A program made the position numbers and the translations under genes. A stretch of DNA of 48,368 nucleotides from a virus. Under the pieces are notes generated by a model, which searched no databases, was not told the origin of the DNA, and worked only from the letters and a program-made list of their open reading frames with translations. Below are positions 12,336 through 36,428 of the stretch, piece by piece. Location: positions 1-48,368 of IMG/VR virus record IMGVR_UViG_3300013132_000077; one strand, written 5' to 3'. How positions within the stretch are numbered: position 1 is the first letter of the stretch; every line of letters starts with the position of its first letter.

Positions 12336-12782
12336 ATGAAATATTCCACATATATAGCTGCGGCAGAGCGTCTATCGATATTAGGACAGAAAAAAAAGGC
12401 TTCGGCGTTGGTTGACCACGCGATCATGCAGGAAAGAAAGAAGATCGACGAGCTCAATTTCAATATACTGGTCGGAGAAGTCCGAAATTTCAACGGCGCC
12501 AAATTCCATTCGGTTCAGGTATTGCGAGAAAGAGAAGCAAACACGCTGATGTGCATCTTTAATTCGAATGTCAACACGCATAGGATCTGCGCCAACCTTC
12601 GTCCGGGCGGAGATGTTGTCTGGTCTGACGGAAACCTTTTTTCGGATAGGCAGTCTGTCAGAAGCTATGAGAAGCTTTTGGCTTGCCTTTCATCATATCA
12701 TCCTGAAATAAAAAAGCTGCTCTCTGAAATAGAAGTTTCTAGAGAATCCATCAAGGTAGTCGGCCGCACTTTCTACGTGTAG
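12336..12782 (+). CDS. Protein of unknown function
   Basis: 148 residues. The N-terminus MKYSTYIAAAERLSILGQ is helical and recalls the capsid-targeting leaders of T4 internal proteins (MKTYQEFIAE). The centre is likely beta (RICANLRPGGDVVWSDGNLF). No catalytic motif is seen. It sits directly before the portal but has a host-type element upstream rather than the late motif. Confidence 0.65.
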   Translation: MKYSTYIAAAERLSILGQKKKASALVDHAIMQERKKIDELNFNILVGEVRNFNGAKFHSVQVLREREANTLMCIFNSNVNTHRICANLRPGGDVVWSDGNLFSDRQSVRSYEKLLACLSSYHPEIKKLLSEIEVSRESIKVVGRTFYV

Positions 12783-12800
12783 CATTTGCGAAGAGAGGCG

Positions 12801-12836
12801 CGAGATTTAATATATACGTTAAATTTCGCGTTTTTC
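12801..12836 (+). terminator. Terminator hairpin with a late promoter in its loop
   Basis: CGCGAGATTTAA pairs with TTAAATTTCGCG (one G-T pair) around the loop TATATACG, followed by TTTTT. The late motif TTAATATATAC (12807-12817) spans the arm and loop. Transcription from upstream would end here while the portal transcript starts at or after it. Confidence 0.7.
12807..12817 (+). promoter_or_regulatory. Late-type promoter motif TTAATATATAC of the portal gene
   Basis: 25 bases before the ATG at 12842. Confidence 0.6.
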
Positions 12837-12841
12837 TATAG

Positions 12842-14563
12842 ATGGCATCATATAATTACAACAACACCAAAGATTCGCAGGGAATGGGATTCGTCAATTC
12901 CGCGGTAGAGAACAAAGGACTCTTCAGCCGCATATTGAGAAACCTTTCCAATTATGGCATGAACTACGACGACATGATCGTCAGGAATCAGGTGGGTATA
13001 GGAATAAACGAAGATCCTTATGCGGCCAAGGGAAACTCCATGTACGACTTCTTTTCTCAAAGAGCGGTCGCTTCCGTCTTGAGCAGGAAATCCATACCTT
13101 ATCTAGACAAAGGATATGCGGACAAAAGAAGAATATTGAGAGAATATTCCATAAAGGACGAGATAAGAGACATGGTCAGCATGATTGCAGACGAGTGCAT
13201 CGTCTACAACGACGACAGAGACTTCTGCTCGCCTAGGCCTATAGGAAACGACTATCCTCAAGAGGTGCAGGACCGATACCAGGAATATTTCGAGAAGATC
13301 TACAGCAAATACGGCTTTTCTGACAGCATCACCGCATGGAACATGATGAAGGACTTCTTGGTGGATGGTTTCGTCGCGGTCGAGATAATATACGACGACA
13401 AAAAGAAGAACATAATTGGATTCAACAGGCTTAGGCCAGAGACTATCGTTCCCGCATACGAGCCTAACGTAGGCCATCTCTGGATACAGTTTCCTGAAGA
13501 TCCTCAGCTAAGGAGGATATTTCTCGATTCTCAGATAGTTTTCGTGTCGTATTCGACTCAGAACGACTATTCTGAGACATCATACGTAGAGGGGTTGATC
13601 AAGCCATACAACCAGCTGAAGATTCTAGAGCAGACGAGGATAATGTTCAACGTCATAAACGCTACTATATACCAGAAGTTCACTATTCCGATCAAAGGAC
13701 TCTCTAGGCAGAGAGCAGAAGAGCAGATTGGTCAGCTCATACACGACTATTCGGAAGAGGTGGAGTGGGACGACACTCTTGGAACTCTTACGATGAACGG
13801 AAACAAGCATCTTCCTTACAACAAGCAGATATGGTTTCCGGAAAGCGACGCGGGTACGCCAAACATGACATTAGAATCGCCGCAAGGACATGATCTAAAC
13901 GAAGAGAGCATGCTCAAATGGTTCCACCAGGCTCTCAAGAGGGCCTCCAAGATTCCTATACAGAGATTCGAAGCGGAAAGCGGCGGCGGTACTTTCATCG
14001 CGGATACCGCTGGCCTCACGAACGACGAGGTGAAGTTCCACAATTTCATAAGCAGATTGAGGGCGAATTTCAAAGAGCTTATAGTCAAGCCTCTTAAGCT
14101 TCAGATGCTTATAGAGTTTCCTGAGCTGAAAGACGACGAGATCATAATGAACCAGATGGATATCGTCTTCTATTCGAACCAGATATTCGAAGAATGGAAG
14201 AAGATCGCCAATCTGGCCAAAAGAGCCGAGGCCATAACTACGCTTACTGGAATAATGAACGGCGAGAAGCCATACTTCCATATTGAGTGGATCATGGATC
14301 ACGTATTCAAGCTTACTCCTGAAGAGAAAGCCGACAACCAGAAATACTGGGCCAAGGAAGCTGGCGGAGCTGGCGCTACTGGCGAGATTGCCGGAGGTGC
14401 TGAAGGAGGCGCTCCTGCACAAGGCGGCGGAGAGATGGGTGGCGAAGCACCGGTGCAAGGAGGCGCGCAGGCACAGGCACCAGCCGCGCAAGCCCCTGCA
14501 CAAGGAGGAGGACAGGCCGCGCCGGAAGCTCCTGCACAGGGCGGCGGAGAATTCGAATTCTAG
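12842..14563 (+). CDS. gp20: Portal vertex protein gp20
   Basis: 573 residues (T4: 524). The T4-type portal core is clear: RREYSIKDE-type start (RILREYSIKDEIRDMVSMIA), ECIVYNDD, FDGFVAVEII-like VDGFVAVEIIYD, and the long FRPETIVPAYEP-like RLRPETIVPAYEP. It also has GTFIADTAGLTNDEVKFHNF and a long C-terminal helix. Twelve copies form the ring through which DNA enters and leaves and on which the prohead starts. The last 60 residues are a Gly/Ala/Gln/Pro repeat tail (APAQGGGQAAPEAPAQGGG) that T4 lacks. A strong terminator follows. Confidence 0.92.
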   Translation: MASYNYNNTKDSQGMGFVNSAVENKGLFSRILRNLSNYGMNYDDMIVRNQVGIGINEDPYAAKGNSMYDFFSQRAVASVLSRKSIPYLDKGYADKRRILREYSIKDEIRDMVSMIADECIVYNDDRDFCSPRPIGNDYPQEVQDRYQEYFEKIYSKYGFSDSITAWNMMKDFLVDGFVAVEIIYDDKKKNIIGFNRLRPETIVPAYEPNVGHLWIQFPEDPQLRRIFLDSQIVFVSYSTQNDYSETSYVEGLIKPYNQLKILEQTRIMFNVINATIYQKFTIPIKGLSRQRAEEQIGQLIHDYSEEVEWDDTLGTLTMNGNKHLPYNKQIWFPESDAGTPNMTLESPQGHDLNEESMLKWFHQALKRASKIPIQRFEAESGGGTFIADTAGLTNDEVKFHNFISRLRANFKELIVKPLKLQMLIEFPELKDDEIIMNQMDIVFYSNQIFEEWKKIANLAKRAEAITTLTGIMNGEKPYFHIEWIMDHVFKLTPEEKADNQKYWAKEAGGAGATGEIAGGAEGGAPAQGGGEMGGEAPVQGGAQAQAPAAQAPAQGGGQAAPEAPAQGGGEFEF

Positions 14564-15080: not shown

Positions 15081-16964
15081 TTAGAATCTAGTGAAGTTGA
15101 TCTGCTTCTTTTCCAAGTCTACCGACTTGACTACTACTTTGATAGGATCTCCAAGCCTTATCTGGTTTCCAGAGGCGTCGTATGCCAAATATCTGTCTGC
15201 GTCCGCTGTCCACTTTCCTTCGAGAGTCTCTATCCTTATCAGTCCTTCGCATTTGCTTTCCACGATTTCCGCGTAGATTCCTCTGTCGAGAACTCCGGTT
15301 ACTATAGCGTCGAAGACCTTCCCTATCTTGTCCTGTAGATATTCTGCCTGCTTGTACTTTATAGAGTCTCTCTGTGCTTTCGCCGCGATTAGCTCTCTGC
15401 TTGAGCACCATTTTGCCTGCTCTTCTATCTTTCCTGGATTTCCCTGCTTTCCGCTAGTCAGCTTGTCGAAAAGAATCCTGTGCGTTATAAGGTCTGGATA
15501 TCTCCTTATAGGAGATGTGAAGTGCGAGTAGTGTGTGAATCCCAGTCCGTAGTGTCCTATGTTCTTTATCGTGTATACCGCCTTTGACATGCATCTGGTA
15601 ACCAAAGTCTCTATCATGTTTTCTTCAGGAGTTCCTTTTATGTCCATTATGAGCTTGTTCAGGTTCTTTTTCAGCTGATCGCCTTCTTCCGATATCTCGA
15701 ATCCATATCCGAAGTTTTCGCATACTCCTTTTAGAGAAGCCAGCTTTTCCTCGTTTGGCTTGTCATGTACTCTATATACGTTGTGCCATTGGTCTCTAGC
15801 GAGAAGCTTGGCCACTGATTTGTTCGCCAATAGCATGTATTCTTCGATGAGCTTGTTGGCCTCTTTCTGCTCTTTGAAATAGACTCCTATTGGCTTTTTG
15901 TTGTCTTCTGCCAGCTTGAACTTAACTTCTATTCCGCCCATTTCTATAGATCCGTTTTTTATTCTAGCTTTTCTTATCCTTCGTGCCAGCCTGTCCAGCT
16001 CTCTTATCTCTTTGGAGTATTCTCCTTCCGATCCTTCTATTATGTCCTGTGCTTCTTCGTAGGTGAATCTCCTGTCGGAATGTATGATTGTTTTCCCATG
16101 CCACTCCTTCTTTGTCTTGCCTTCTTTGTCTAAGGTGAAGACCACCGAGAAAGCGAGCCTGTCCACGTTTGGCTTGAGCGAGCATATTCCGTTCGATAGC
16201 CTTTCCGGTAGCATCGGTACGCATCTGTCTACCAGATAGACGGATGTCGCCCTTCTGTATGCTTCTTTGTCGAGCTCTGTACCGAACTTGACATAGTGCG
16301 CGACGTCTGCTATGTGAACGCCCACATGTATATTGTCCGGGTCTCTCATGTCTATAGATATGGCGTCGTCGAAGTCCTTGGCGTCTACCGGATCTATAGT
16401 TATGGTAGTCACGCTTCTCATGTCTCTTCTGGATGCTATCTCCTTTTCGGTGATCACTTCTGGGACCATCTCGGATTCGTTGAGGACTTCCTGAGGGAAA
16501 TCCACTGGAAGGCCGTATTCGTACATTATGGCGTTCATCTCCGCGTTGTTCTCTCCTATCTCTCCCAATATCTTCTTTATCTCTCCTCTAGGAGACTTCT
16601 TTTCTGGGTTCCAGTCTATGAATCTGACCACTACTTTCTGTCCGTCTTTGGCATCATGTTCTCCTTTTATGTAGAAGTCTGCCGATATCCTTGGATTGTC
16701 CGCTATGACGAATGTGGTTTCTCCGTTCTTTTGAACCGTTCCTACAAACTCGGACCTGAATCTTTCCTTCACTTCCACCACTTTGGCCTCTAGCTTTTTA
16801 GGCCCTTTGAATATTTCAGCGGTCACTATATCCATATGCAGCGCGTTCAGCGTCTTTTTTCTGTGTATGAATATTTCCTTTCCTTCTGATTTTATGGTGG
16901 CGTTTCCTGACGACGTGAATTCTATCTGCGCGTCTATCCTGTCGCCCTCTTTTATTTTATTCAT
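15081..16964 (-). CDS. rnr: RNase R family 3'-5' exoribonuclease
   Basis: 627 residues. An N-terminal cold-shock-like part (to about 130) is followed by the RNB catalytic domain with TIDPVDAKDFDDAIS (189-203). Asp191, 197, 199 and 200 match the metal-binding acids of RNase II/R. Later come VHIADVAHYVKFGTELDKEA, SVYLVDRCVPMLPERLSNG and the HYSHFTSPIRRYPDL block. The C-terminal S1 domain begins at GKVFDAIVTGVLDRGIYAEI. It degrades RNA processively, including structured RNA. It is shorter than E. coli RNase R (813), lacking the Lys-rich tail and the N-terminal HTH. Bacterial RNase R degrades non-stop mRNA during trans-translation, and this phage also carries tmRNA. Confidence 0.93.
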   Translation of the reverse strand: MNKIKEGDRIDAQIEFTSSGNATIKSEGKEIFIHRKKTLNALHMDIVTAEIFKGPKKLEAKVVEVKERFRSEFVGTVQKNGETTFVIADNPRISADFYIKGEHDAKDGQKVVVRFIDWNPEKKSPRGEIKKILGEIGENNAEMNAIMYEYGLPVDFPQEVLNESEMVPEVITEKEIASRRDMRSVTTITIDPVDAKDFDDAISIDMRDPDNIHVGVHIADVAHYVKFGTELDKEAYRRATSVYLVDRCVPMLPERLSNGICSLKPNVDRLAFSVVFTLDKEGKTKKEWHGKTIIHSDRRFTYEEAQDIIEGSEGEYSKEIRELDRLARRIRKARIKNGSIEMGGIEVKFKLAEDNKKPIGVYFKEQKEANKLIEEYMLLANKSVAKLLARDQWHNVYRVHDKPNEEKLASLKGVCENFGYGFEISEEGDQLKKNLNKLIMDIKGTPEENMIETLVTRCMSKAVYTIKNIGHYGLGFTHYSHFTSPIRRYPDLITHRILFDKLTSGKQGNPGKIEEQAKWCSSRELIAAKAQRDSIKYKQAEYLQDKIGKVFDAIVTGVLDRGIYAEIVESKCEGLIRIETLEGKWTADADRYLAYDASGNQIRLGDPIKVVVKSVDLEKKQINFTRF

Positions 16965-17349
16965 CTTTTTTGTTCTTTTTTGAGATGTTGTCGACTCCGT
17001 ATTTTTCCATTAGGGTGCTTTTCATCTTCGACATCACCTTTTTGTTCTGTATTGGGTAGTCTACTCCGTAGTTTTTTCTTAGCGTCTCCTTCCTTTTCGC
17101 CTCTGAGCATTTCCTGCACGAGTAGTCTCCCCACTTATCGTTTCCGTATTTAAGGTAGTTTTTGTATATGACGTCCTTTTCTATGCCGCATGAATCGCAT
17201 TGGAACTTCACTTTGTAGTGCGATCCTTTTGGAAGAAGCTCTACGGGTATCGTTATGACTTCGCCTATGGATATCTCGTATCCCAGGTCTTCGTAATACT
17301 GGTAGTTCGACTCGCTTATCTTTATGTCTATCTGTCGCGTTATTATCAT
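16957..17349 (-). CDS. Homing-endonuclease-like protein, probably C-terminally truncated
   Basis: 130 residues. FQCDSCGIEKDVIYKNYLKYG and YSCRKCSEAKRKETL hold two Cys pairs (zinc-binding). They are followed by the KNYGVDYPIQNKKVMSKMKS and EKYGVDNIS repeats that mark DNA-binding regions of T4-type homing endonucleases. Family members continue into a nuclease domain; here the frame ends at KKNKKDE just inside the RNase R start (8-base overlap). It is probably a remnant left after RNase R and this gene were joined. Confidence 0.65.
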   Translation of the reverse strand: MIITRQIDIKISESNYQYYEDLGYEISIGEVITIPVELLPKGSHYKVKFQCDSCGIEKDVIYKNYLKYGNDKWGDYSCRKCSEAKRKETLRKNYGVDYPIQNKKVMSKMKSTLMEKYGVDNISKKNKKDE

Positions 17350-17467
17350 CTTGTAAAAAATCCGCCTATATGTTCTATTCTGGAAAGAAAATTTGTTTCG
17401 CTATTTCTTTCGGCTTCTTTCGATTTCTTTAAAAAATCCATCTATGGAAATTTTAAGTTTTTTAAAG

Positions 17468-17478
17468 TCAATATATAC
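17468..17478 (+). promoter_or_regulatory. Late-type promoter motif TCAATATATAC
   Basis: 33 bases before the ATG at 17512, followed by an A-rich leader with AAAAAAAAAA. Confidence 0.55.
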
Positions 17479-17511
17479 ACTATTGACTGAATAAAAAAAA
17501 AATCTTATTAC

Positions 17512-19611
17512 ATGAAGCCAGTTTTAATAGTAGAGAATTCTACGAATTCTCTTGTTAGAGAAAGCGCTGCAGGAAAGAAGGACTATGTTATGAGCGGTAC
17601 GTTCACTGAATTCGGAGTTAAGAACCGAAACGAGAGGATATACACTGCCGACAAATTCCTTCCTGCTCTTCAGGAGATGAATGAGAGGATGAGCAACCTT
17701 GGGGTTGTGTACGGTGAGTTCGATCACCCGGATGTCTTCGACACTTCTCTTTCGCGCGCTTCTCACGTGATCACGAAGGCTGATTACGTGGCCGAGTCTA
17801 ACCTAGTGGCCGGAGAAATCAGATTGCTAAGCACTTATTGGGGAAAAGAAGCAAAGTCGCTCGTGGATGACGGGTGTCCTGTATTCGTTTCTTCAAGAGC
17901 GGCGGGCATCACCGAATCTGACGGAACCGTTTCGTTGAAGAAGTTATTCACTTACGACATTGTCGCGGATCCTGGATTCGCCTCTGCTAAGATGAACGTT
18001 AAGGTTCTGAACGAGTCGCTTGGCTACGCTAACCCGAAATCTAACTTTAGGATATATGAAATGTCCGATGAGTCTAAAACCGAAGAGTTATTCAATATGA
18101 ACAAAAACGAATTCGTCACAAAGCAGCAGCTTACTGACTATTCTCAGTATTTGGTGAAGGAGCTCGCCTCTACTAAGAGCGTCGTTAAGAACGCCATCAA
18201 GAAAGGTGACATGAATCCTAAGAAGCTCGAGCAATTGCTGGAATACTATGAGGAACTTAACAAGACAAACTCTCAAGTAGTTAAATATCTAGACTATTTA
18301 GCTGAGAAAGTTCAAGTTATGGTAAATGAAAACAAGTCTTTGAAAGAGACTACTAAAAAGCTTATCAAGCACAACGACTATCTCGCTGAGAACCTCGAGA
18401 AGGCGGTTAACTATTCCGAGTATCTCGCTGAGAACCTCGACAAGAACATCGCTTATTCCGAGTATATCGCTGAAAACGTGGACAAAAACATCTCTTATAC
18501 TGAGTATGTTGCTGAAAACGTAGACAAAAACATCTCTTACTCCGAGTATCTCGCCGAGAACCTCGACAAGAACATCGCTTATTCCGAATATCTAGCCGAG
18601 AACCTCGACAAGAACATCGCTTATTCCGAGTATATCGCCGAGAACCTCGACAAGAACATCGCTTATTCCGAGTACATCGCAGAGCATGTGGACAATTCTA
18701 TAGCTTATTCCGAATATTTGGCAGAGCACGTTGAAGGCAACATCGCTTATTCCGAGTACATCGCAGAGCATCTTGATGACAACATCGCATACTCTGAATA
18801 CATCGCTGAAAATCTTGACAAATCTATTTCCTACCAGGGATTGATCGTTGAGAAACTGAATGGCGGAAAATTGAATGAGTCTGCTGAAGGCGCTTTTCCT
18901 TCTCTTAATTCCGCAGGATTCGAAAGAGTTGAAGAAGAAGACGAAGAAGAAGACGAAAACGAAGACGCTTATTCAAACAACGGAATCGCAGAAGTCGCAC
19001 CTAACCATGTTGACGCTCACGAAGACGAAGAGGACGAAGAGGACGAAGACGAAGACTGTGGTCCTAGCAAATACGAAATCTCCGGACATTCTCACTCAGA
19101 ATTGTCCGAATCAATAGATAAACTTATCGAAGAAGCTACCAAACGTAAAGTTTCTGAGACATCCGACATGAATTTCTTGAAGTTTTTGTCAAAATCGCAA
19201 GTTGACAGCTTCTATGCTCTTACAAACGAAGAGCAGGAGACGGTTAAGCTACACATAAACGAAAGCAGCTACTTCACTCAAAAAGAAGTATTGTCTCTTA
19301 TCGCTGAAGCATTGTCTACTAAAAACGAGACTCTTGAAGAAAGAGTTATCAGAATGATGCCTGAAAACACAAAGGCTATCTGGAATCAGCTGAACGAATC
19401 CGCTAAGAAATCTATCTTGTCTCAAGCTAGACTCTACCCTGTTGAAGTTCTTCAGACTGAATCTCAAATCGAGCATTTCTGGGCAACTAGAAACCTCAAA
19501 ACAAACGAATCTGTTACAAAAAAGCTGGTTTCTCACGAAGCTCTTATCCAAGAAGATAAGCTGTCCGACAATGAGGTTTCCGCTATAATGGAAAGATTCA
19601 AAAACATCTAA
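17512..19611 (+). CDS. gp21-gp22: Fused prohead protease (gp21-like) and scaffold (gp22-like)
   Basis: 699 residues. Residues 1-165 form a gp21-type serine protease: SGTFTEFGVKNRNERIYTAD, GEFDHP (68-73, catalytic His72 likely) and VFVSSRAAG (Ser127 or Ser128 likely nucleophile). Then comes a helical scaffold with eleven 14-residue repeats of YSEYLAENLDKNIA type (287-440), an acidic stretch (EEEDEEEDENED) and a helical C-terminus. T4 makes the two as separate proteins (212 and 269 residues). Candidate self-processing sites of [IL]xE type, LNE-S, occur at 166-168, 454-456 and near the C-terminus. The late motif and A-rich leader fit high late expression. Confidence 0.85.
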   Translation: MKPVLIVENSTNSLVRESAAGKKDYVMSGTFTEFGVKNRNERIYTADKFLPALQEMNERMSNLGVVYGEFDHPDVFDTSLSRASHVITKADYVAESNLVAGEIRLLSTYWGKEAKSLVDDGCPVFVSSRAAGITESDGTVSLKKLFTYDIVADPGFASAKMNVKVLNESLGYANPKSNFRIYEMSDESKTEELFNMNKNEFVTKQQLTDYSQYLVKELASTKSVVKNAIKKGDMNPKKLEQLLEYYEELNKTNSQVVKYLDYLAEKVQVMVNENKSLKETTKKLIKHNDYLAENLEKAVNYSEYLAENLDKNIAYSEYIAENVDKNISYTEYVAENVDKNISYSEYLAENLDKNIAYSEYLAENLDKNIAYSEYIAENLDKNIAYSEYIAEHVDNSIAYSEYLAEHVEGNIAYSEYIAEHLDDNIAYSEYIAENLDKSISYQGLIVEKLNGGKLNESAEGAFPSLNSAGFERVEEEDEEEDENEDAYSNNGIAEVAPNHVDAHEDEEDEEDEDEDCGPSKYEISGHSHSELSESIDKLIEEATKRKVSETSDMNFLKFLSKSQVDSFYALTNEEQETVKLHINESSYFTQKEVLSLIAEALSTKNETLEERVIRMMPENTKAIWNQLNESAKKSILSQARLYPVEVLQTESQIEHFWATRNLKTNESVTKKLVSHEALIQEDKLSDNEVSAIMERFKNI
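18370..18831 (+). repeat. Eleven 42-bp tandem repeats in the scaffold region
   Basis: Units code for [YH]xxY[LIV]AExxxxxI[AS], for example YSEYLAENLDKNIA. Units 5, 6 and 7 are nearly identical in DNA (CTCGACAAGAACATCGCTTA), which points to recent duplication. Confidence 0.9.
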
Positions 19612-19623
19612 TCTATAAAAAAT

Positions 19624-19650
19624 CCAAGCCTGTAAAATAAGGGTTTTTGT
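19624..19650 (+). terminator. Weak hairpin after the scaffold gene
   Basis: AAAAATCC and GGGTTTTT can pair imperfectly around a long loop (AAGCCTGTAAAATAA), then T-run. Low strength; may allow read-through into the capsid gene. Confidence 0.3.
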
Positions 19651-19651
19651 A

Positions 19652-19663
19652 CAGTATATATAG
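19652..19663 (+). promoter_or_regulatory. Late-type motif CAGTATATATAG of the capsid gene
   Basis: 35 bases before the ATG at 19699; followed by a leader of almost only A (AAAAAACAAAAAAAAAC), as in strongly translated Bacteroidota genes. Confidence 0.5.
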
Positions 19664-19698
19664 ATTATTAAAAAACAAAAAAAAACAAAAAAAAACTT

Positions 19699-21426
19699 AT
19701 GTCACACATTAGAATAGACAAGGCGAAAGCCACTAAGAAATGGGCACCGGTTCTTGAGAACATGGGTGTTACAGGTGATAGAGTAGAATGGATGGCAGAA
19801 TATGCTGAGTTCCACTCAATCAACGAGAACGCGTACGTTAACGCATCTAACGTAGCTGGTATGGGCGGTGTATTCGCTGCGCAGCCTGCTGCATACGCTG
19901 GTAACACAATCGGCGGTTCTTTGGCGACTGCCAATTCAGTAGGTCAAATCGGTTCAGGAGATGTTGGTCAAAACCTTCTTCCAGTTGCGATGAAGATCGC
20001 TGCTCAGACTATCGGTCTTGATCTAGTTGCTGTTAAGCCAACTCCAGGTCCGAAAATCGACCTTCTTTACATCGATTTCCAATACGATGATACAAGATTA
20101 GGAAACTCTGACGAAAGACCACAGGTTTTCAAATTGAACACTACTAACCCTACTACAGCTGCTCTTGCTGCTGCTATGAAGAGTGGTAACGGTGCTTCTA
20201 TCTCTGAAGTAACAGGCGGACTTAGAAACGGAAGATTCTTCTACTCTATCAACGCTACAGGTACTGCATCTTTGGGTGCTACCGTATCTACAGACGAACC
20301 TAGCAGCAAAGCAGGTGTTGTTGAGTTCCTAGGATTCTCTAGGATCGACGGATTCCCAATCTTCAGGGCTTTCAGACAAGCAAACACTGCTCACGGTGTT
20401 GTAGGTTCTGCTAACACTGCTTGGGCTTTCGACTCACAAAGAAACACTTTTGGTGCTACTTCTTCCATGGTTTCTCAAATCGAAAGAATCGCAGGCGTTG
20501 CAATATCCGCTGCTACTATCGAATTGGTTTCCGCATTAGAAGACCATATCCCAGGATTCTCTACTAACTTTGGAGGAGTTCCTTCAGGCGCTGCACAAGG
20601 TGCATACCCAATGTCAAGGCAAGAAGACGATGATTCTTATGCAGGAGTTATCGGTCCTAAAATCTCTTCTAAAACTATCGCGGTTGGTACTATCGAAGTA
20701 TCTTCAGCTCTTAGAAGAACTGAGATCGAAGACATCAAGGCTAACACAGGTATGGATATCGTTCAAAAAATGGAATCTATCCTTGTTAACGAATTGTCTC
20801 AAACAATCTCTAAGCAAATCGTTGCTAAAATCTTCGAAATGGGTTCTCTTAACAGAAAGTCTGCTCCTTTGAAATCAGGATCTTCTTACTCTGATACAGC
20901 TGCTTGTACACTTTTCGACCTTGATACATCTTACGTTTCAACAATGGCCGGTGGTGAGACTACTCACGCAGTTCAAAGAAAGCTTATCACTAAGATAGCT
21001 CATGCTTCCAACTACATCGCGACTGAAGGACGTGTAGGTCCTGCTCAGTACCTTGTAACAAACGGAGGTCTTGCTGCTGCTCTTCAAGACATCGCTGGAT
21101 ACACAATCAACCCAGTTAAGTCTAAATTAAACGGACAAGGTCAATTATACCCTGTAGGTTCAATAGGCGACATCGCTATCTATGTTGATCCATACATGAA
21201 GTATAACGACAACAGGATCGTATTGGGTAGAAAGAACAACCCAGACCAACCAGGTATCATCTTCGTACCATACTTGATGGCTCAGTCTATCTCAGTTATC
21301 TCTGAGGCAACTTTCGCACCAAGGATGTTGTTGAGATCTAGATATGCGGTTGCTGAAATCGGATGGTTCCCACAAAAACAATTCATGACTCTAGTAGTTA
21401 CTGACGCTGCTCAGTACCTCAACTAA
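19699..21426 (+). CDS. gp23: Major capsid protein gp23
   Basis: 575 residues (T4: 521). It has the T4/HK97-type capsid order: a helical N-terminal arm, GQIGSGDVGQNLLPVAMKI, GLDLVAVKPTPGPKIDLLY and RRTEIEDIKANTGMDIVQKM. Near the end are ATEGRVGPAQYLVTNG, YVDPYMKYNDNRIVLGRK and SEATFAPRMLLRSRYAVAEI. A likely maturation cut lies after INE (41-43, SINE/NAY), an [IL]xE site like that used by T4 gp21. Codons are more strongly biased than in neighbours, as expected for the most abundant protein. Two shorter paralogues of its C-terminal part are at 27159 and 41586. Confidence 0.95.
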   Translation: MSHIRIDKAKATKKWAPVLENMGVTGDRVEWMAEYAEFHSINENAYVNASNVAGMGGVFAAQPAAYAGNTIGGSLATANSVGQIGSGDVGQNLLPVAMKIAAQTIGLDLVAVKPTPGPKIDLLYIDFQYDDTRLGNSDERPQVFKLNTTNPTTAALAAAMKSGNGASISEVTGGLRNGRFFYSINATGTASLGATVSTDEPSSKAGVVEFLGFSRIDGFPIFRAFRQANTAHGVVGSANTAWAFDSQRNTFGATSSMVSQIERIAGVAISAATIELVSALEDHIPGFSTNFGGVPSGAAQGAYPMSRQEDDDSYAGVIGPKISSKTIAVGTIEVSSALRRTEIEDIKANTGMDIVQKMESILVNELSQTISKQIVAKIFEMGSLNRKSAPLKSGSSYSDTAACTLFDLDTSYVSTMAGGETTHAVQRKLITKIAHASNYIATEGRVGPAQYLVTNGGLAAALQDIAGYTINPVKSKLNGQGQLYPVGSIGDIAIYVDPYMKYNDNRIVLGRKNNPDQPGIIFVPYLMAQSISVISEATFAPRMLLRSRYAVAEIGWFPQKQFMTLVVTDAAQYLN

Positions 21427-21442
21427 TCAGTCTTAATGATAG

Positions 21443-21477
21443 GAAAATGTCGCTCTATGGGCGGCATTTTCTTTTTT
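21443..21477 (+). terminator. Terminator after the capsid gene
   Basis: AAAATGTCGC pairs with GCGGCATTTT (one T-G pair), then CTTTTTT. Confidence 0.85.
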
Positions 21478-21490
21478 ACGCATTGTGGAA

Positions 21491-21501
21491 AGAATATATA
21501 G
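21491..21501 (+). promoter_or_regulatory. Late-type motif AGAATATATAG
   Basis: Ends 3 bases before the ATG at 21505. Confidence 0.45.
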
Positions 21502-21504
21502 TAT

Positions 21505-21897
21505 ATGGGGAATATAGATAGCTTCGACTCGTTCTTCGAAAAGAAGGACAAGTTTCCTGACATAAAGAACTTGGACATAGACGGATTTGTCGTCTATATG
21601 GGCAGAGATGCCAAATCCAACGACTACCTGACATTCAATGTCGCTGACGAAGAGGATATATGGATGCACGCGAAAGGAGTTCCAGGAAGCCATGTCGTCA
21701 TACGAGTAAGAGAATCTCTTCCTACCGAAGAAGTGATAAAGAAGGCGGCGGCACTTGCCAAGAAGAACAGCAAAGGCAAGGATAAGGACAGAATCACGGT
21801 GGTATACTGCCAGAGGAAATTTGTCAATAAAGATCCTGGAATGAACGACGGCCAGGTGAAAGTCGACTATATAAACGCTAACGAAATAAAAATATAG
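21505..21897 (+). CDS. Single-domain NFACT-R (DUF814) RNA-binding protein, RqcH-related
   Basis: 130 residues that match the NFACT-R domain of RqcH/Rqc2 almost end to end: DGFVVYMGRDAKSNDYLTF (26-44), ADEEDIWMHAKGVPGSHVVI (47-66) and the AAALAKKNSK helix. In bacterial RqcH this domain binds tRNA and rRNA on split 50S subunits, while the NFACT-N, HhH and coiled-coil parts recruit Ala-tRNA; all of those are absent here. It could compete with or redirect host RqcH, or bind structured RNA in another role. It has its own late-type motif and ends 2 bases before the peptidase at 21900, so the two form an operon. Confidence 0.85.
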   Translation: MGNIDSFDSFFEKKDKFPDIKNLDIDGFVVYMGRDAKSNDYLTFNVADEEDIWMHAKGVPGSHVVIRVRESLPTEEVIKKAAALAKKNSKGKDKDRITVVYCQRKFVNKDPGMNDGQVKVDYINANEIKI

Positions 21898-21899
21898 AT

Positions 21900-23333
21900 A
21901 TGGCAGAAAAAAAGCATAAGATGGAGTTTTCAAAAGAGCTCGAGCAGATTTTAGCAAAGCTGGAAAAGCAGGGAAACTACGTCGCGTGGGAGCTGCTCCT
22001 TATGAACGATCCTGACGCGGGGTCAGAACTTGAGGACATAATACACAAATCTGGCGTCGAGAGAGTAGACGTTTCTGAAAAGGACTACAGCTTTGTCGTG
22101 GAGACCACTGACGGAAAGAAGACCGAGATGAAGATCGGCGCCTTCATAAGAAAGTTCTTCGGCGACTTCTATGCGAACCATGAGATAGAGAAATTCTCCA
22201 ACCTATACAACATTGCAAAAGGTGGTGGCAAGAAGAAAGGAGAGCCTATAAAGGTCGGCAAGTTCTCGTATGATCCTAAAGACGTTAGAAAGACCTTTCT
22301 TTCTCTGGTGACCAAGACCTATCCTCATGGACATGAGGATGAGCTGCTTGAGTTCCTTCCTGAGCTCAAAAAAGACCGCGTCGGAAACTACTACGTCATG
22401 ATAGGCGGAGATAAGCCTGAAACCATGTTCACTTCGCATCTAGACACCGCGGATAGATCGCAGAGGACTACATATCTCTTCAGCGACAAAGAAGGAGAAG
22501 ACGAAATCATAGTGACTGATGGAACTTCGGTGCTGGGCGCCGACGACAAGTCTGGCGTGACCGTAATGCTTTATATGATGGCACATGGAATATCCGGGCT
22601 ATACTATTTCTTCATAGGCGAAGAAAGAGGCGGCATCGGATCGCACGCGCTTGCGGACATCTTCGAAGAGGTCCCTTACCTTCACAATCTAAAGAGATGC
22701 GTTTCTTTCGACAGGAGAAACTACCATTCCATAATAACTTCCCAGATGGGTGGCGAATGCTGCTCGGATGAGTTCGCGGAAGCGCTTTGCGACGCGTACA
22801 ACCAGCATGGAATGAGCATGAAGCCAGACAATACTGGAATATATACAGACTCTGCTTCCTTCATAGACGATATACCTGAGTGCACCAACGTCTCCGTTGG
22901 ATACTTCAACGAGCATACCGGTAACGAGAAGCAGAACATATCTTTCCTGGAGAGGCTCTGCAAGGCATCTGTCTCCATAGACTGGGAATCTCTTCCGACC
23001 AAAAGGTCTCTAGAGGAGATCATCTCGTTCAGGGCGACTGAGAAGGCGGCGCGCTCGAGATATAAAGACCTGCTTGATGAGTTCAAGTCTGCCGCGCCTT
23101 CTTTGGATCGGCTTGTTTCCGTGGAATATGGAAAGACCTATGTCTGCTTCGACCTCGAAGGGTCGGACCTCGCCACGATACATGATACGCTGGAATCCAT
23201 ATTGGCGGTTATGAAGACCACCAACAATCGTCCTGAAATCGCTAAGTCTGTTCATACCTACGAACACAACTGGAGGGCAGGAAACTGTCCTGTGGAATTC
23301 GACGAGACCTATCTGAAGATAAGAATAGAATAA
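21900..23333 (+). CDS. M20/M28-like zinc metallopeptidase (copy 1)
   Basis: 477 residues. A 120-residue N-terminal extension precedes the peptidase core. The zinc and catalytic residues are in FTSHLDTAD (His180, Asp182), VLGADDKSG (Asp215/216) and GEERGGIGS (Glu241, Glu242); a later His in FNEHTG completes the set. The core is strongly similar to the protein at 44135, which lacks the extension. It probably cuts short peptides or acts as an aminopeptidase; a virion role is also possible. The extra C-terminal 110 residues (from FRATEKAARSRYKDLL) are unassigned. Confidence 0.85.
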   Translation: MAEKKHKMEFSKELEQILAKLEKQGNYVAWELLLMNDPDAGSELEDIIHKSGVERVDVSEKDYSFVVETTDGKKTEMKIGAFIRKFFGDFYANHEIEKFSNLYNIAKGGGKKKGEPIKVGKFSYDPKDVRKTFLSLVTKTYPHGHEDELLEFLPELKKDRVGNYYVMIGGDKPETMFTSHLDTADRSQRTTYLFSDKEGEDEIIVTDGTSVLGADDKSGVTVMLYMMAHGISGLYYFFIGEERGGIGSHALADIFEEVPYLHNLKRCVSFDRRNYHSIITSQMGGECCSDEFAEALCDAYNQHGMSMKPDNTGIYTDSASFIDDIPECTNVSVGYFNEHTGNEKQNISFLERLCKASVSIDWESLPTKRSLEEIISFRATEKAARSRYKDLLDEFKSAAPSLDRLVSVEYGKTYVCFDLEGSDLATIHDTLESILAVMKTTNNRPEIAKSVHTYEHNWRAGNCPVEFDETYLKIRIE

Positions 23334-23348
23334 AAAAAACGAATTGAG

Positions 23349-23744
23349 ATGAAAATCAAGAGATATGATAGATATATAGCAGAAGAGTCCGAATGGGATG
23401 ACGAATATCCATATGACGACGCCCAAGAAGAAGATGAAGATGAAGAAGAAGACGACGATGTGGCGCAGCATCTTCTTTATCTTTTGAGGTCCTATCTTTC
23501 CAAGGCGGGCATAAAGAACGCCGATGTCAGAGGAAACGCCGATGTCATAAAGATGGAGATAACTATGTCCAAAAAGGAGAATATGGCGGCCGTCATATCC
23601 ACTTTCGCGACTCTCAGAAAGATATCTGAAGAGATATTGCCGGACTACGACTGCGAGTTCGACATATGGAAGAACAAGAAGGGCGAGCCTCTGCTGATAC
23701 TCGACTTCTATTCCGAAGACGCTATGTCCGACGATGTTTTTTGA
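23349..23744 (+). CDS. Acidic protein with a leader-like N-terminus
   Basis: 131 residues. MKIKRYDRYIAEESEW resembles the T4 capsid-targeting leader (basic, aromatic, then E). It is followed by a very acidic run (YDDAQEEDEDEEEDDDVAQ) and a small alpha/beta domain. No motif is recognised. It starts 15 bases after the peptidase and is probably co-transcribed. After its stop comes the tmRNA promoter region. Confidence 0.65.
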   Translation: MKIKRYDRYIAEESEWDDEYPYDDAQEEDEDEEEDDDVAQHLLYLLRSYLSKAGIKNADVRGNADVIKMEITMSKKENMAAVISTFATLRKISEEILPDYDCEFDIWKNKKGEPLLILDFYSEDAMSDDVF

Positions 23745-23784
23745 TTTTTCAATCAACTTTTCGGAATATTAGAGATATTATATA

Positions 23785-23792
23785 TATCTTTG
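23785..23792 (+). promoter_or_regulatory. TATCTTTG promoter element of the tmRNA
   Basis: Fits TAnnTTTG and ends 23 bases before the first base of the mature tmRNA, leaving room for a short 5' leader that RNase P would remove. Confidence 0.55.
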
Positions 23793-23815
23793 TTGAAGAA
23801 ATCAAAGCAAAATAT

Positions 23816-24180
23816 GGGGGTGTCATAGATTCGCCTAGCAGAGTAGCGATGATTATGCAGGTATCGGGTGGCTGAATGTCCGATTTACAAATTAGGCGGC
23901 AAACGTTGTAAATGGCAACACAAATGAAGTAGGAACCCGTGAAGATCTAGTAGCGGCCCTAAAGTCAATCGGAGCTAACACTCCAGAGCTGGTTTAAGAG
24001 AGCAGCTTCAAAAAAAATTCTCCGCCTGTATCGCGCAGTCCAAATGCGAAAACCGTTCTGCGGATTCTTGGGTCAAGATCCGATATTTTGAGAGTTTAGA
24101 AAAACGTCTCTAAGCCTGTAAACGAATAATTGTTGGTAGCTGATTAGTACATGCCGGGCAGTGCGGCATCACCTCCACTA
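23816..24180 (+). ncRNA. ssrA: Transfer-messenger RNA (tmRNA)
   Basis: 365 bases, the usual tmRNA size (E. coli 363). The 5' end GGGGGTG pairs with CACCTCC near the 3' end (24170-24176), giving a 7-bp acceptor stem with the G3-U wobble that makes alanyl-tRNA synthetase charge it. GATTCG follows at 23829, as in most tmRNAs. The 3' end is ACTA (CCA not encoded). The bases before it (AAGCCTGTAAACGAATAATTG) resemble the conserved 3' part. The resume codon is probably GGC at 23914, 98 bases from the 5' end. The tag frame is unusually long (27 codons). The T loop is GGCAGTG instead of the usual TTC-type loop. A terminator follows. It rescues stalled ribosomes with SmpB; no smpB is in the window. 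Confidence 0.85.
23914..23997 (+). other. tmRNA tag-peptide reading frame
   Basis: From GGC the frame codes GNTNEVGTRED onward, passes LVAALKSI, and ends GANTPELV before TAA (27 residues). Normal tags have 8-15 residues and end in LAA. If one C of the run at 23957-23959 were absent, the tag would be 15 residues and end DLVAA before TAA. An alternative start at GGA (23971) would give GANTPELV, but it is too far from the 5' end. Confidence 0.55.
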
Positions 24181-24183
24181 AAG

Positions 24184-24213
24184 AGCCCTGATTCATCAGG
24201 GCTTTATTTTTTA
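24184..24213 (+). terminator. Terminator of the tmRNA gene
   Basis: AGCCCTGA pairs with TCAGGGCT around TTCA, followed by TTATTTTTT. Confidence 0.9.
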
Positions 24214-24542: not shown

Positions 24543-25070
24543 ATGATAATAGACAGATTCGAAGGAAGATGGAGGTTTCTTTCCAATTTCCATCCGTGTG
24601 AAGTAGAGCATCAGGGAATAACATATCCTTCGGTGGAGCACTACTATGTCGCCATGAAGTGCAACAACGAGCAGATGCTCTATGGGAGGCACTATACCAT
24701 AGGAGACTTTCGCGAGATGATCGCCAACACTCCAAGTCCTGCATTAGTCAAGTCTATAGGGCAGAAGATGAAAGTAAGAAAAGACTGGGATGAGAAAAAG
24801 CTCGAGTTCATGCTATATGGAGTGAGAGAGAAATTTAAAGATCCTGACTTAAAAGAACTTTTGTTGAGTACCGAAGATTTTTCTTTAGTTGAATCGAATG
24901 ATTGGAATGATAAATTCTGGGGCGTGTGTCAAGGAAAAGGGTTAAACCATTTAGGCAGGATACTGATGAAGGTCAGAAAGGAAATCTCGGAAGAGCAGTC
25001 GTTGCCTTATCAGGAAGATAGGCCAGCGTCGCTTGAGGATTTTTTCAGACAGGCTGGACAGGCAAAATAG
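24543..25070 (+). CDS. NADAR-family N-glycosidase (YbiA/DUF1768)
   Basis: 175 residues. It has the NADAR signature: RWRFLSNFHPCEVEHQGITY, then YPSVEHYYVAMK and the final WGVCQGKGLNHLGRILMKVR. Family members cut N-glycosidic bonds, acting on riboflavin-pathway intermediates or removing ADP-ribose from guanine bases. A phage copy may therefore undo ADP-ribosylation by host defence. The segment 24830-24955 is visibly more AT-rich than the rest of the gene, like a recombination patch. The next gene starts 2 bases after its stop. Confidence 0.85.
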   Translation: MIIDRFEGRWRFLSNFHPCEVEHQGITYPSVEHYYVAMKCNNEQMLYGRHYTIGDFREMIANTPSPALVKSIGQKMKVRKDWDEKKLEFMLYGVREKFKDPDLKELLLSTEDFSLVESNDWNDKFWGVCQGKGLNHLGRILMKVRKEISEEQSLPYQEDRPASLEDFFRQAGQAK

Positions 25071-25367: not shown

Positions 25368-26207
25368 ATGAGAAAACTTATAGAACTTACAGAGAAACAA
25401 GAACAGGACCTATTCGAGAGAAGAGAGGCCGGTGAGAAAAGGAAAGACCTGATAAAAGAATTTGCGGTTTCCGATAGAGAATACAAAAAAATAATACTCA
25501 AACACGGCGGCGTACTGAAGAGTAAAGTGCAGAAGTACAACTTTAACGAGAGCTACTTCGAAAACATCGACACTGAAGACAAAGCTTACTTTCTCGGTTT
25601 CATCACTGCGGATGGATCTGTTAATGATGATTATGCGAAATTTGTAAAAATAAAACTGAATGCCGACGATTTCGGTATTCTGGAAGATTATATTTCATAT
25701 ACGAAATATGAAGGACCTGTTTATAAACACAAAAATGGAAAGTATTGTGAAGTTGCTTTATCGGGTAAAAAAGTCGTAAGCGATTTGAATAAACTGGGTA
25801 TACTACCAAACAAAACACATACCGTTGAGTTTCCTAAAATACCCGAGAATTTAGTACGTCACTATATGCGTGGTGTTTTCGACGGTGATGGTTGCATCTC
25901 AATACACAAAAAAAGAGAAGGATCTCGCGATACCTCTGATAGAGGTCAAGTGAACCTCTGTTCAGCAAGTAAGAACTTCATAGAGGAATACGTTGATCGT
26001 TTACAAGTATGTTGTGGTATAACAAAGAATAAAATAAGGAATCCGAAGGGTTCCTACTATGTCATCGACTGGGGTTCTTTTGCGGATATAGAGAAGTTTT
26101 ATTATTTCTTCTACTCTAACGCCAACGTCTACCTGAAAAGGAAAAAAGAAACTTTCGACATCGCTATCGGTATAAGTAAGACAAAGACTAGATATAGAAA
26201 AAAGTAA
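25368..26207 (+). CDS. LAGLIDADG homing endonuclease
   Basis: 279 residues, two LAGLIDADG motifs: LGFITADGS (76-84) and MRGVFDGDG (167-175), whose acids are the metal ligands. Such a monomer cuts an asymmetric site of about 20 bp. The N-terminal 55 residues are a helical, HTH-like basic part. It is free-standing between two genes, not in an intron or intein as far as can be seen. It is more AT-rich than its neighbours, so it probably arrived recently. A TATATAATG sequence precedes the ATG. Confidence 0.88.
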   Translation: MRKLIELTEKQEQDLFERREAGEKRKDLIKEFAVSDREYKKIILKHGGVLKSKVQKYNFNESYFENIDTEDKAYFLGFITADGSVNDDYAKFVKIKLNADDFGILEDYISYTKYEGPVYKHKNGKYCEVALSGKKVVSDLNKLGILPNKTHTVEFPKIPENLVRHYMRGVFDGDGCISIHKKREGSRDTSDRGQVNLCSASKNFIEEYVDRLQVCCGITKNKIRNPKGSYYVIDWGSFADIEKFYYFFYSNANVYLKRKKETFDIAIGISKTKTRYRKK

Positions 26208-26229: not shown

Positions 26230-27162
26230 ATGAGTGTTATAAGTTATTTTGGTGGCAAGGCCGCCTTTCAATCGTTCATAACTCCAAAGATTCCATTCAA
26301 AGAGTGCAAAACATATCTAGAGCCTTTCTCTGGATCTTTCGCCATATATCTGGATTCCAAGATGGAGTTCGAAAACGTGATATTCAACGACCGCAACAGG
26401 CATCAGGCCAACCTGATGAGATGCTGCGCTTCTCCGCAAGAATTCCTCGTAGAGCTGAAGGCTCTCTTGGCGCCAGGCGGGCTTCTGCATACTGTCGAGA
26501 CGTCGGTCGACAAGAAGTGGGACTTCTACAAGGCGATCTACCACAGATACGTTAAGAACGAATTCCTGGACAACATGGACTTCGAGATAGGAGACTTCAA
26601 GGTCGCCGCCATCTACGCGTTCCTCATCACTTCTTCGTTCTCGAGCGTCTATCCTAGAGGCGGCGGATTCACCGGATTCAAGAAGAAGAAAGACAAGCTC
26701 AACCTCTCTATACTTATAAACAAGCTAGAGAAGAACAAATACACCGACAGGCTGCAGAACATCACGGAGTTCAACAACATGGACTTCGAGGAAGTCATAC
26801 TCAAGCACGACTCGGAAGACACGTACATCTATCTGGATCCTCCATATGCTCGATTCAACGACGTCAAGAACGACGACGATGGCAGACGCCTGTTCTGGTA
26901 TGGGTGCGACGACGAGAACACGTTTGGAGTCGCTTCTCACAGGAGGCTTCTCGAGCTTCTGAAGACCACTAAGTCTAGATGGTCTCTGTCATACTACTAC
27001 TTCCCTCTTCTCGAAGAGATACTTCCGAAAGACAAATATGTCTGGACTTCTAAAGAGTTCCACAGGCCGTCCGCTGTGATAAAGACAGAAGGCGTGGAGA
27101 AGGAGAAAGGCGTCGAGCTGCTCATCATGAACTACGATCCCGAAACAGGAGAAAGAGTATGA
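26230..27162 (+). CDS. dam: D12-class DNA adenine N6-methyltransferase (Dam-like)
   Basis: 310 residues. It opens with SYFGGKAAF (AdoMet-binding motif X), EPFSGSFAIY (motif I), and has the catalytic motif YLDPPYARF (DPPY). An insert around 205-220 (NDVKNDDDGRRLFWYGCDDE) follows DPPY. It methylates adenine, target unknown, probably to guard phage DNA from restriction. The stop overlaps the start of the capsid-like gene (ATGA). Confidence 0.9.
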   Translation: MSVISYFGGKAAFQSFITPKIPFKECKTYLEPFSGSFAIYLDSKMEFENVIFNDRNRHQANLMRCCASPQEFLVELKALLAPGGLLHTVETSVDKKWDFYKAIYHRYVKNEFLDNMDFEIGDFKVAAIYAFLITSSFSSVYPRGGGFTGFKKKKDKLNLSILINKLEKNKYTDRLQNITEFNNMDFEEVILKHDSEDTYIYLDPPYARFNDVKNDDDGRRLFWYGCDDENTFGVASHRRLLELLKTTKSRWSLSYYYFPLLEEILPKDKYVWTSKEFHRPSAVIKTEGVEKEKGVELLIMNYDPETGERV

Positions 27163-27908
27163 TCGACGATATAAGGAAGGCAATAGAAGAAGGCAGGTTC
27201 GACATCTTCGAGCCTGCCGGATTCGTTAAGAAGCGAGCTTGCGGAAATCCTGAGAGGCTCAGGATTTCGTTCGGAGTTCCGATAGACGCATCGGCAGTCT
27301 TCGGCCTGAACGTCGACATGGTCGCGGAGTTCTTGGCGCAGCTCAGGAGAGGCGTTTCGGACCAATGTCACAAGAAGATATTCGGTTCGCTGTCTGGTTC
27401 CGAGAGATATTCGGTTCGCGACCTCAGAGGAATTCCGGAATTTATGGTGGCGAAAGAGCTGATTTCCGAGATAAAGAATTCCGGATTCAGGTATGTGCTG
27501 GCTGGATCCAGGATCGCCACCATTCTCCAGGACTCCAGCGAGTTCGTCATATCTTCCGATTCTCTTTCTTCTATATCGAAGAGCAATTCCAACGTGCATA
27601 TGATAGGAAGCATATACGGCTACCAGGACGTGTATCTGGACCCCTATATGAAGTGGAACGACTCTCGCGTTATCCTATTCTCCGAAGCGAACGCCCTCGC
27701 TTCTGGATTCAAGCTGGCCGAGGCAGCGGACGAAGCGACCTTCGCGCCGAGGATAATAATAGAGATGTCTCTAGAGCATTCTGTTGGAGATTCGATGGTG
27801 CTTTATGTGAGAGACGACGAGAATCCTGACCTAGATCCTGGATTGATAGCGCGGATGAGAGACCAGAAAATAGACAATCTGCTAGATGAAGAAGATAAGA
27901 GAAGCTGA
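27159..27908 (+). CDS. Shortened paralogue of the major capsid protein C-terminus (copy A)
   Basis: 249 residues. GSIYGYQDVYLDPYMKWNDS and RVILFSEANA, then DEATFAPRIIIEMSLEHSV match the capsid segments GSIGDIAIYVDPYMKYNDNR and SEATFAPRMLLRSRYAV. The start (KAIEEGRFDIFEPAGF) and the end (DLDPGLIARMRDQKIDNLLD) differ. The N-arm and most of the E-loop/A-domain of gp23 are absent, so it cannot be a full capsomer. It could be a vertex or decoration protein, or it could interfere with other phages' capsids. It is coupled to the methylase by ATGA. Confidence 0.75.
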   Translation: MIDDIRKAIEEGRFDIFEPAGFVKKRACGNPERLRISFGVPIDASAVFGLNVDMVAEFLAQLRRGVSDQCHKKIFGSLSGSERYSVRDLRGIPEFMVAKELISEIKNSGFRYVLAGSRIATILQDSSEFVISSDSLSSISKSNSNVHMIGSIYGYQDVYLDPYMKWNDSRVILFSEANALASGFKLAEAADEATFAPRIIIEMSLEHSVGDSMVLYVRDDENPDLDPGLIARMRDQKIDNLLDEEDKRS

Positions 27909-36421: not shown

Positions 36422-36428
36422 TTTATTT

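Follow-up and report, generated by a model that had tools for sequence, protein, structure and literature searches.

A divergent tmRNA with a long tag frame in Mahaphages, and the RNase R and NFACT-R genes beside it

We analyzed the complete IMG/VR record IMGVR_UViG_3300013132_000077 (48,368 bases; hereafter the window), itself a fragment of a larger genome, and found in it a transfer-messenger RNA (tmRNA, ssrA-like) of a class that standard annotation misses, within a head-gene block that also encodes RNase R and a stand-alone NFACT-R protein. The contig is a fragment of a Mahaphage, a group with genomes of 634-735 kb and predicted Bacteroidota hosts. The complete genomes nearest to it, those of LR745206 (634 kb) and LR756502 (642 kb), are assigned to this group by their sizes; Bacteroidetes had been predicted as hosts of the Mahaphage genomes over 634 kb (PMC7162821). 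Collectively, our results suggest that this Mahaphage probably has a trans-translation system of its own, whose tag has been re-coded and to which RNase R and the NFACT-R protein would be accessories.

A tmRNA class missed by standard annotation, its tag frame and its partners

By eye, 23816-24177 shows the marks of a tmRNA: the acceptor GGGGGUG/CACCUCC, a region resembling GGCAAAC, an extended frame and CUAAGCCUGUAA on the 3' side (Table 1). ARAGORN, which did find the E. coli tmRNA used as a control, reported none in the window or in the first 60 loci searched, and Rfam returned no tmRNA in the window at gathering level or at E values up to 5. An nhmmer profile built without the window matched the window tmRNA with an E value of 9e-84 and exactly the same ends. 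Full-length matches to RF00023 were obtained in two relatives, L005 (35.7 bits, E 5e-11) and L048 (36.7 bits, E 2e-11), both below the gathering cut-off of 47 bits, while the tmRNA of LR756504 scores 65.2 bits, above it. A DNA search recovered the same tmRNA in LR745206 and LR756502, a tmRNA is also present in LR756500, Lak-A2 and LR756504, and a scan for the 3' motif located it in about 45 viral contigs. When bacterial genomes were scanned for that motif, none of the 32 matches was a tmRNA of this family and no cellular source was found. Of 80 capsid-anchored loci that we fetched, 51 have enough flank on both sides to be counted, and 50 of these carry the tmRNA; some contigs are near-identical, so locus counts are not independent. 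Host contamination as the origin was rejected: in these 50 loci the tmRNA lies within the head-gene block of the phage. Two permuted-tmRNA calls elsewhere in the window (8268-8958 and 12757-13153), made by ARAGORN at a relaxed threshold, are unsupported and were rejected as false.

The structure was examined by a covariation test on 20 aligned copies, using ten short helices named from the window, with two pseudoknots among them. In this alignment 96.5% of cells were paired and 21 pairs had changed on both sides, a level reached by none of 500 shuffles, and slid controls gave only 33-50% pairing. The helices were picked by eye on the same sequences, which biases the pairing percentage upward, and the changes on both sides are the stronger evidence. 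In all, 54 base pairs covary, the two pseudoknots included. Across the 54 distinct copies the G3.U70 pair is invariant and other acceptor-stem changes are compensatory (GGGGAUG/CAUCUCC, GGGGCUG/CAGCUCC). The T loop departs from the UUCRANY consensus: it reads GGCAGUA or GGCAGUG in most copies, UGCAAUA in one and UUCGUC in the outgroup, and this departure very likely explains the failure of ARAGORN. At loop positions 54 and 58 the pairs G-G, U-A and A-U occur, with few independent changes, hinting that this tertiary contact covaries.

The 735-kb phage LR756501 at first appeared to be without a tmRNA, a possibility now ruled out: its tmRNA (L259; record 718388-718731 and upstream) is apparently split at the T loop by a group I intron (L259:1272-1503, minus strand; RF00028, 96 bits), and its own match lies under the Rfam cut-off. 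Introns of bacterial tmRNAs sit in the same loop (PMC11915505).

A promoter-like box precedes the window tmRNA and an intrinsic terminator follows it. TAnnTTTG is the Bacteroidota -7 element. Counted from the mature 5' end, such a box stands 23-34 nt upstream in all listed loci except three, often preceded by a TTTG element; the window has an exact -7 box and an imperfect -33 TTTG element. Terminator-like hairpins occupy the same place in relatives. These signals fit a separate tmRNA transcript that host RNA polymerase would read.

The tag frame starts with GGN or GAC after GUAAAY, and the two other frames of the region are closed by stops. Among 41 distinct tag coding sequences (CDSs), pN/pS over the core is 0.54 in the tag frame against 0.76 and 1.06 in the others, and a 6-nt (two-codon) indel is in frame; by these measures the tag frame is under purifying selection. 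Tags of the window's clade, such as GNTNEVGTREDLVAALKSIGANTPELV in the window itself, are 27-30 aa long, share a core NEV..REDLVxAL and end in, for example, ATV, ELV, AVV or VVA; not one of the 41 ends in AA, the ClpXP degron. The commonest tag length in the tmRNA database is 10 aa (PMC11915505), and LR756500 (GNNAEMRMAA) and Lak-A2 (DDEIDFRMAA) have ordinary 10-aa tags ending in MAA. LR756504 encodes DNVNSFEQSILNELFAPVEMAVAA and LR756501 GDYKMNAEDMMSIPTSLTGKVATESFVEDLVLA. In a capsid tree, whose long branches make the deep order unsure, the branches immediately outside the window's clade are LR756501 and LR756504, with Lak and LR756500 more distant. From this placement and the basal MAA tags, it follows that the tag lengthened in one branch and that AA was lost in most of that branch. 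Ordered by tag, the phages run naturally from short degrons by way of DNVNSFEQSILNELFAPVEMAVAA to long tags that lack AA, and in such a series the question of whether the rescue or the tag pays becomes directly testable.

Taken together, the leave-one-out match, the covariation, the conserved tag frame and the full-length Rfam matches in L005 and L048 make a firm case, on sequence grounds, that the window tmRNA is real. Since standard annotation misses this class, which occurs in some of the largest known phages, counts of phage tmRNAs are too low.

The relatives encode proteins that could work with the tmRNA. SmpB is found in every near-complete relative, at equivalog level in LR745206 (179 bits against a cut-off of 130) and as family matches in LR756502, LR756504, the 436-, 385- and 174-kb relatives, the 735-kb phage and Lak phages; none was found in the 48-kb window fragment. 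Of 16 records, 10 have ClpP and 7 a ClpC/A-type ATPase that bears a UVR-like motif, its scores lying below the NCBIfam cut-offs so that they do not fix its exact class. LR745206, LR756502, LR756504, Lak-A2 and others each hold two to three ClpP-family genes, the best with intact catalytic motifs, and most also hold the ClpC/A-type AAA+ ATPase.

The NFACT-R protein and RNase R

A sequence-only reading of this stretch had proposed that tmRNA, RNase R and NFACT-R form one set, in separate transcripts, to be checked by their co-occurrence in related phages. All three are present, and separate transcripts are plausible: RNase R lies on the opposite strand, NFACT-R behind the capsid gene, and the tmRNA between its own promoter-like box and terminator. 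Co-occurrence holds in 36 of the 51 loci, with NFACT-R in 44 and RNase R in 42 (eight loci are without RNase R, six without NFACT-R and one without any of the three), but it is mostly due to common descent of one head-gene block and not to independent linkage. The core consists of SmpB and tmRNA, whereas several lineages have lost or moved the accessories RNase R and NFACT-R.

The best solved sequence relative of the NFACT-R protein is B. subtilis RqcH (E 4e-17). With its AF2 model (pLDDT 88.6), Foldseek retrieved RqcH (8s1u_H, E 3e-11) and CCDC25 (E 9e-9). In structure alignment the identity is 35-38% to RqcH and 24-27% to CCDC25, a eukaryotic protein of different context in which, as in the phage protein, NFACT-R is the main folded domain of a small protein. 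NFACT-R is the only RqcH match in the 130 aa: NFACT-N, HhH and the coiled-coil/M domain are absent. Among what is missing are the RqcH domains that hold tRNA-Ala (PMC8012679), and alanine tailing therefore cannot be claimed. Our literature search for a release-factor role of Jlp2/CCDC25, the stand-alone NFACT-R protein of eukaryotes, gave nothing usable. NFACT-R matches in Listeria, Enterococcus and fecal 'phage' records were partial and mostly in unannotated records; we set them aside as likely host DNA.

It is a serious contender, if slightly less probable than its opposite, that the NFACT-R protein has nothing to do with ribosome rescue and is a late nucleic-acid-binding protein made with the capsid and perhaps packaged. 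Its gene follows the capsid gene by about 80 nt in most loci (79 nt in the window) and ends 3 nt before a peptidase gene, a position that suggests late expression; a solved structure shows the small NFACT-R protein CCDC25 bound to DNA; and the gene is missing from several tmRNA-bearing lineages. Arguing for a role on ribosomes instead, its closest solved sequence relatives are RqcH proteins on stalled 50S subunits, and the DIWxH and PGSHVVI motifs are retained.

The phage RNase R has the domain order CSD2-RNB-S1 and an intact active site, with the motifs TIDPVDAKDFDDAI and HYSHFTSPIRRYPDL. In the window and in six relatives the protein stops just past S1, with no K/R-rich C-terminal tail. In E. 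coli, RNase R degrades non-stop mRNA together with tmRNA-SmpB, and its K/R-rich tail is needed for ribosome association (PMC12320835). One may ask whether the three parts are neighbours by descent only, the RNase R serving general RNA turnover with no tie to the tmRNA. We regard this as plausible but somewhat doubtful. One ancestral head block is common to all loci, 9 of the 51 have no RNase R near it, and LR756501 is not among the RNase R matches listed; against this, LR756502 has kept its RNase R after a move of about 160 kb, and LR756504 and most relatives keep the gene too.

Two further observations concern this gene. In L010:495-3857 about 1.4 kb of DNA, possibly an intron or a homing insertion, splits it between a residue near 478 and one near 512. 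LR745206, LR756502 and contigs G032, G033, G046 and G052 encode a 364-375-aa protein of S1-like repeats that matches the RNase R model weakly and may be the ribosomal protein S1 that PMC7162821 mentions for phages.

A proposed phage rescue pathway

From these components we infer how charging, rescue, tagging and the two accessories would work together. A host enzyme would charge the phage tmRNA with alanine through its G3.U70 acceptor, and the phage SmpB, encoded elsewhere in the genome, would bind it. The complex would enter ribosomes stuck at the end of broken mRNA, translation would resume on the tmRNA frame, and the released protein would carry a 27-30-aa tag without the AA ending typical of tmRNA tags. 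Such a protein would probably not be routed to host ClpXP in the ordinary way; its other fate would most likely be a phage-encoded ClpCP-type protease, and the phage Clp proteases could read the re-coded tag. The phage RNase R probably clears the broken mRNA, and the lone NFACT-R protein would be an accessory that, on split 50S subunits, probably attaches to tRNA or peptidyl-tRNA. For cell survival, rescue without degradation of the tag suffices (PMC8012679).

A stronger form of this proposal, which we advance tentatively, is that in one megaphage branch a short degron of the host type was re-coded as a long tag private to the phage, so that phage tmRNA, SmpB, RNase R and ClpCP, with NFACT-R on split subunits, make up a rescue-and-degradation channel of their own, beside the host's and separate from it. 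In the FCB group, to which Bacteroidota belong, 404 of 1,956 genomes have RqcH (PMC11633108); a lone NFACT-R protein, RNase R, SmpB and Clp proteases thus come together in phages whose hosts mostly are without RqcH.

Several points weigh against the proposed pathway. The phage RNase R is without the tail that recruits its E. coli counterpart. With UUCRANY replaced, it is less than certain that the RNA is charged, modified in its T loop and bound by EF-Tu. SmpB and the Clp proteins are seen only in relatives, the window being a 48-kb fragment, and ClpP was not found in LR756501 although its tag is also long. Finally, NFACT-R was not found in LR756504 and gave no match in LR756500, LR756501 or Lak, so that it is not needed for the rescue core.

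The tag might also be a stabilizing or addressing tail, by which rescued phage proteins are kept or sent somewhere and not destroyed. The lack of AA endings in the window's clade, while basal Mahaphages retain MAA, and the conserved EDLVxAL core are in keeping with this. Mycoplasma tags, however, are long and are read by Lon, which shows that long tags can be degrons, and the phages encode both ClpP and a ClpC/A-type ATPase; we consider such a tail unlikely. That the phage tmRNA is a decoy, competing with or blocking host tmRNA in place of full tagging, is less probable still: a CDS-less tmRNA of phage DS6A inhibits the endogenous tmRNA when expressed in E. coli (PMC11915505) and the T loop is abnormal in the window's clade, but conservation extends to the tag frame, the resume region, the stop codon and the pseudoknots, which a decoy could do without, and the phages bring their own SmpB.

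Like the standard one-piece tmRNA (RF00023) that works with SmpB, the phage RNA has a G3.U70 acceptor, P2, PK1, a resume site, a tag frame closed by a stop, a further pseudoknot and a hairpin towards the 3' end, and the genomes of relatives encode SmpB; the phage RNA differs in its GGCRGUR-like T loop, its 27-30-aa tag without an AA end, and in escaping ARAGORN and falling under the Rfam cut-off. The B. subtilis genes rnr-smpB-ssrA form one operon (PMC12320835), whereas in the phages the same functional set within one genome is scattered, with RNase R on the opposite strand and SmpB over 100 kb away. An ARAGORN-based survey, likewise concerned with phage-borne ssrA, reported tmRNA in 2.3% of phages (PMC9004378), a method that misses the present class. 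The phage-borne ssrA of Melnitz is of the two-piece alphaproteobacterial type.

The idea that this phage manages stalled ribosomes is better supported than the sequence-only reading could know, given SmpB in every near-complete relative and the tmRNA in nearly all loci. That reading also named host RNA-cutting defences as a possible cause of the stalling. Of the three-part kit, the tmRNA(-SmpB) core is strong; the places of RNase R and NFACT-R in it are weaker, both being accessories, one without the K/R tail and the other without the remaining RqcH domains. The suggestion that no phage system of this kind had been described was too broad, as tmRNA and SmpB in huge phages were named as a class by Al-Shayeb et al. 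2020 (PMC7162821). That study covers the same phages, including the 634- and 642-kb records, and used ARAGORN, which finds none of the present tmRNAs; its main text makes no mention of NFACT-R, RNase R or Clp. What appears to be new is the hidden class of tmRNA, the altered tag, the link to NFACT-R and the phage Clp proteases that could read such a tag.

Gene layout of the head block and neighbouring genes

The portal (Gp20) and capsid (Gp23) of the window are T4-like, and the gene order common to the loci is portal, RNase R, P130, protease, capsid, NFACT-R, peptidase, P131, tmRNA. P130 overlaps the RNase R start by 8 nt and is kept in 75 of the 76 loci with upstream flank. Among the 54 loci with downstream flank, 53 keep the peptidase, whose motifs are metal-binding; a second copy occurs in LR756502 (L002:31794-32522).

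Table 1. Features of the head block and parts of the tmRNA, in window coordinates
Feature	Position	Strand	Evidence or remark
RNase R, 627 aa, no K/R-rich tail after S1	15081..16964	-	TIGR02063, 634 bits (cut-off 598)
Homing-endonuclease-like Zn protein (P130), 130 aa	16957..17349	-	phrog_5104, phrog_12131
Major capsid protein Gp23	19699..21426	+	PF07068, 99.9 bits
Stand-alone NFACT-R protein, 130 aa	21505..21897	+	PF05670, 62 bits (cut-off 29.8)
M20/PepT-like metallopeptidase	21900..23333	+	phrog_4191 peptidase, 224 bits; HLDT, ADDKSG, GEERGG motifs
Acidic protein (P131), 131 aa, conserved, upstream of tmRNA	23349..23744	+	tblastn matches in most loci
Promoter-like box TATCTTTG	23785..23792	+	matches Bacteroidota -7 box TAnnTTTG; 31 nt ahead of mature 5' end
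tmRNA (ssrA-like), mature form to discriminator A, 3' CCA not encoded	23816..24177	+	leave-one-out nhmmer; covariation; RF00023 matches in relatives
Acceptor stem 5' strand GGGGGUG	23816..23822	+	pairs with 24170-24176 CACCUCC; G3.U70 alanine identity pair
P2 helix 5' strand, partner 24115-24138	23844..23861	+	counted pairs, helices 2 and 3
Pseudoknot PK1 (AUCGG/CCGAU plus GCUG/CGGC)	23863..23900	+	both stems covary, 100% and 98.8% paired
Tag frame GNTNEVGTREDLVAALKSIGANTPELV and stop (27 aa), resume codon GGC after GUAAAU	23914..23997	+	frame conserved
Second pseudoknot (CUG/CAG and UCGC/GCGA)	24026..24049	+	helices 6 and 7
3' hairpin ahead of conserved CUAAGCCUGUAA	24090..24110	+	helix 8
T arm, 6 bp, loop GGCAGUG not UUCRANY	24151..24169	+	stem covaries (helix 9); loop survey
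Intrinsic terminator AGCCCTGA-TTCA-TCAGGGCT plus T run	24184..24213	+	sequence

Adjoining the tmRNA in most relatives is a NADAR-domain protein (window 24543-25070, plus strand; TIGR02464, PF08719), which could act on ADP-ribose or flavin intermediates and perhaps serves in counter-defence. Beyond it on the same strand lie a LAGLIDADG-type endonuclease-like protein (25368-26207), a D12-class adenine methyltransferase (26230-27162) and a second, weak Gp23-like protein (27159-27908) that is a candidate vertex protein. Elsewhere, on the minus strand, the window encodes a glutamine-synthetase-like protein (7988-9031; PF00120, PF03951), unusual for a phage, and a 752-aa collagen-repeat protein (30578-32836) near glycosyltransferases at 34246-38063.

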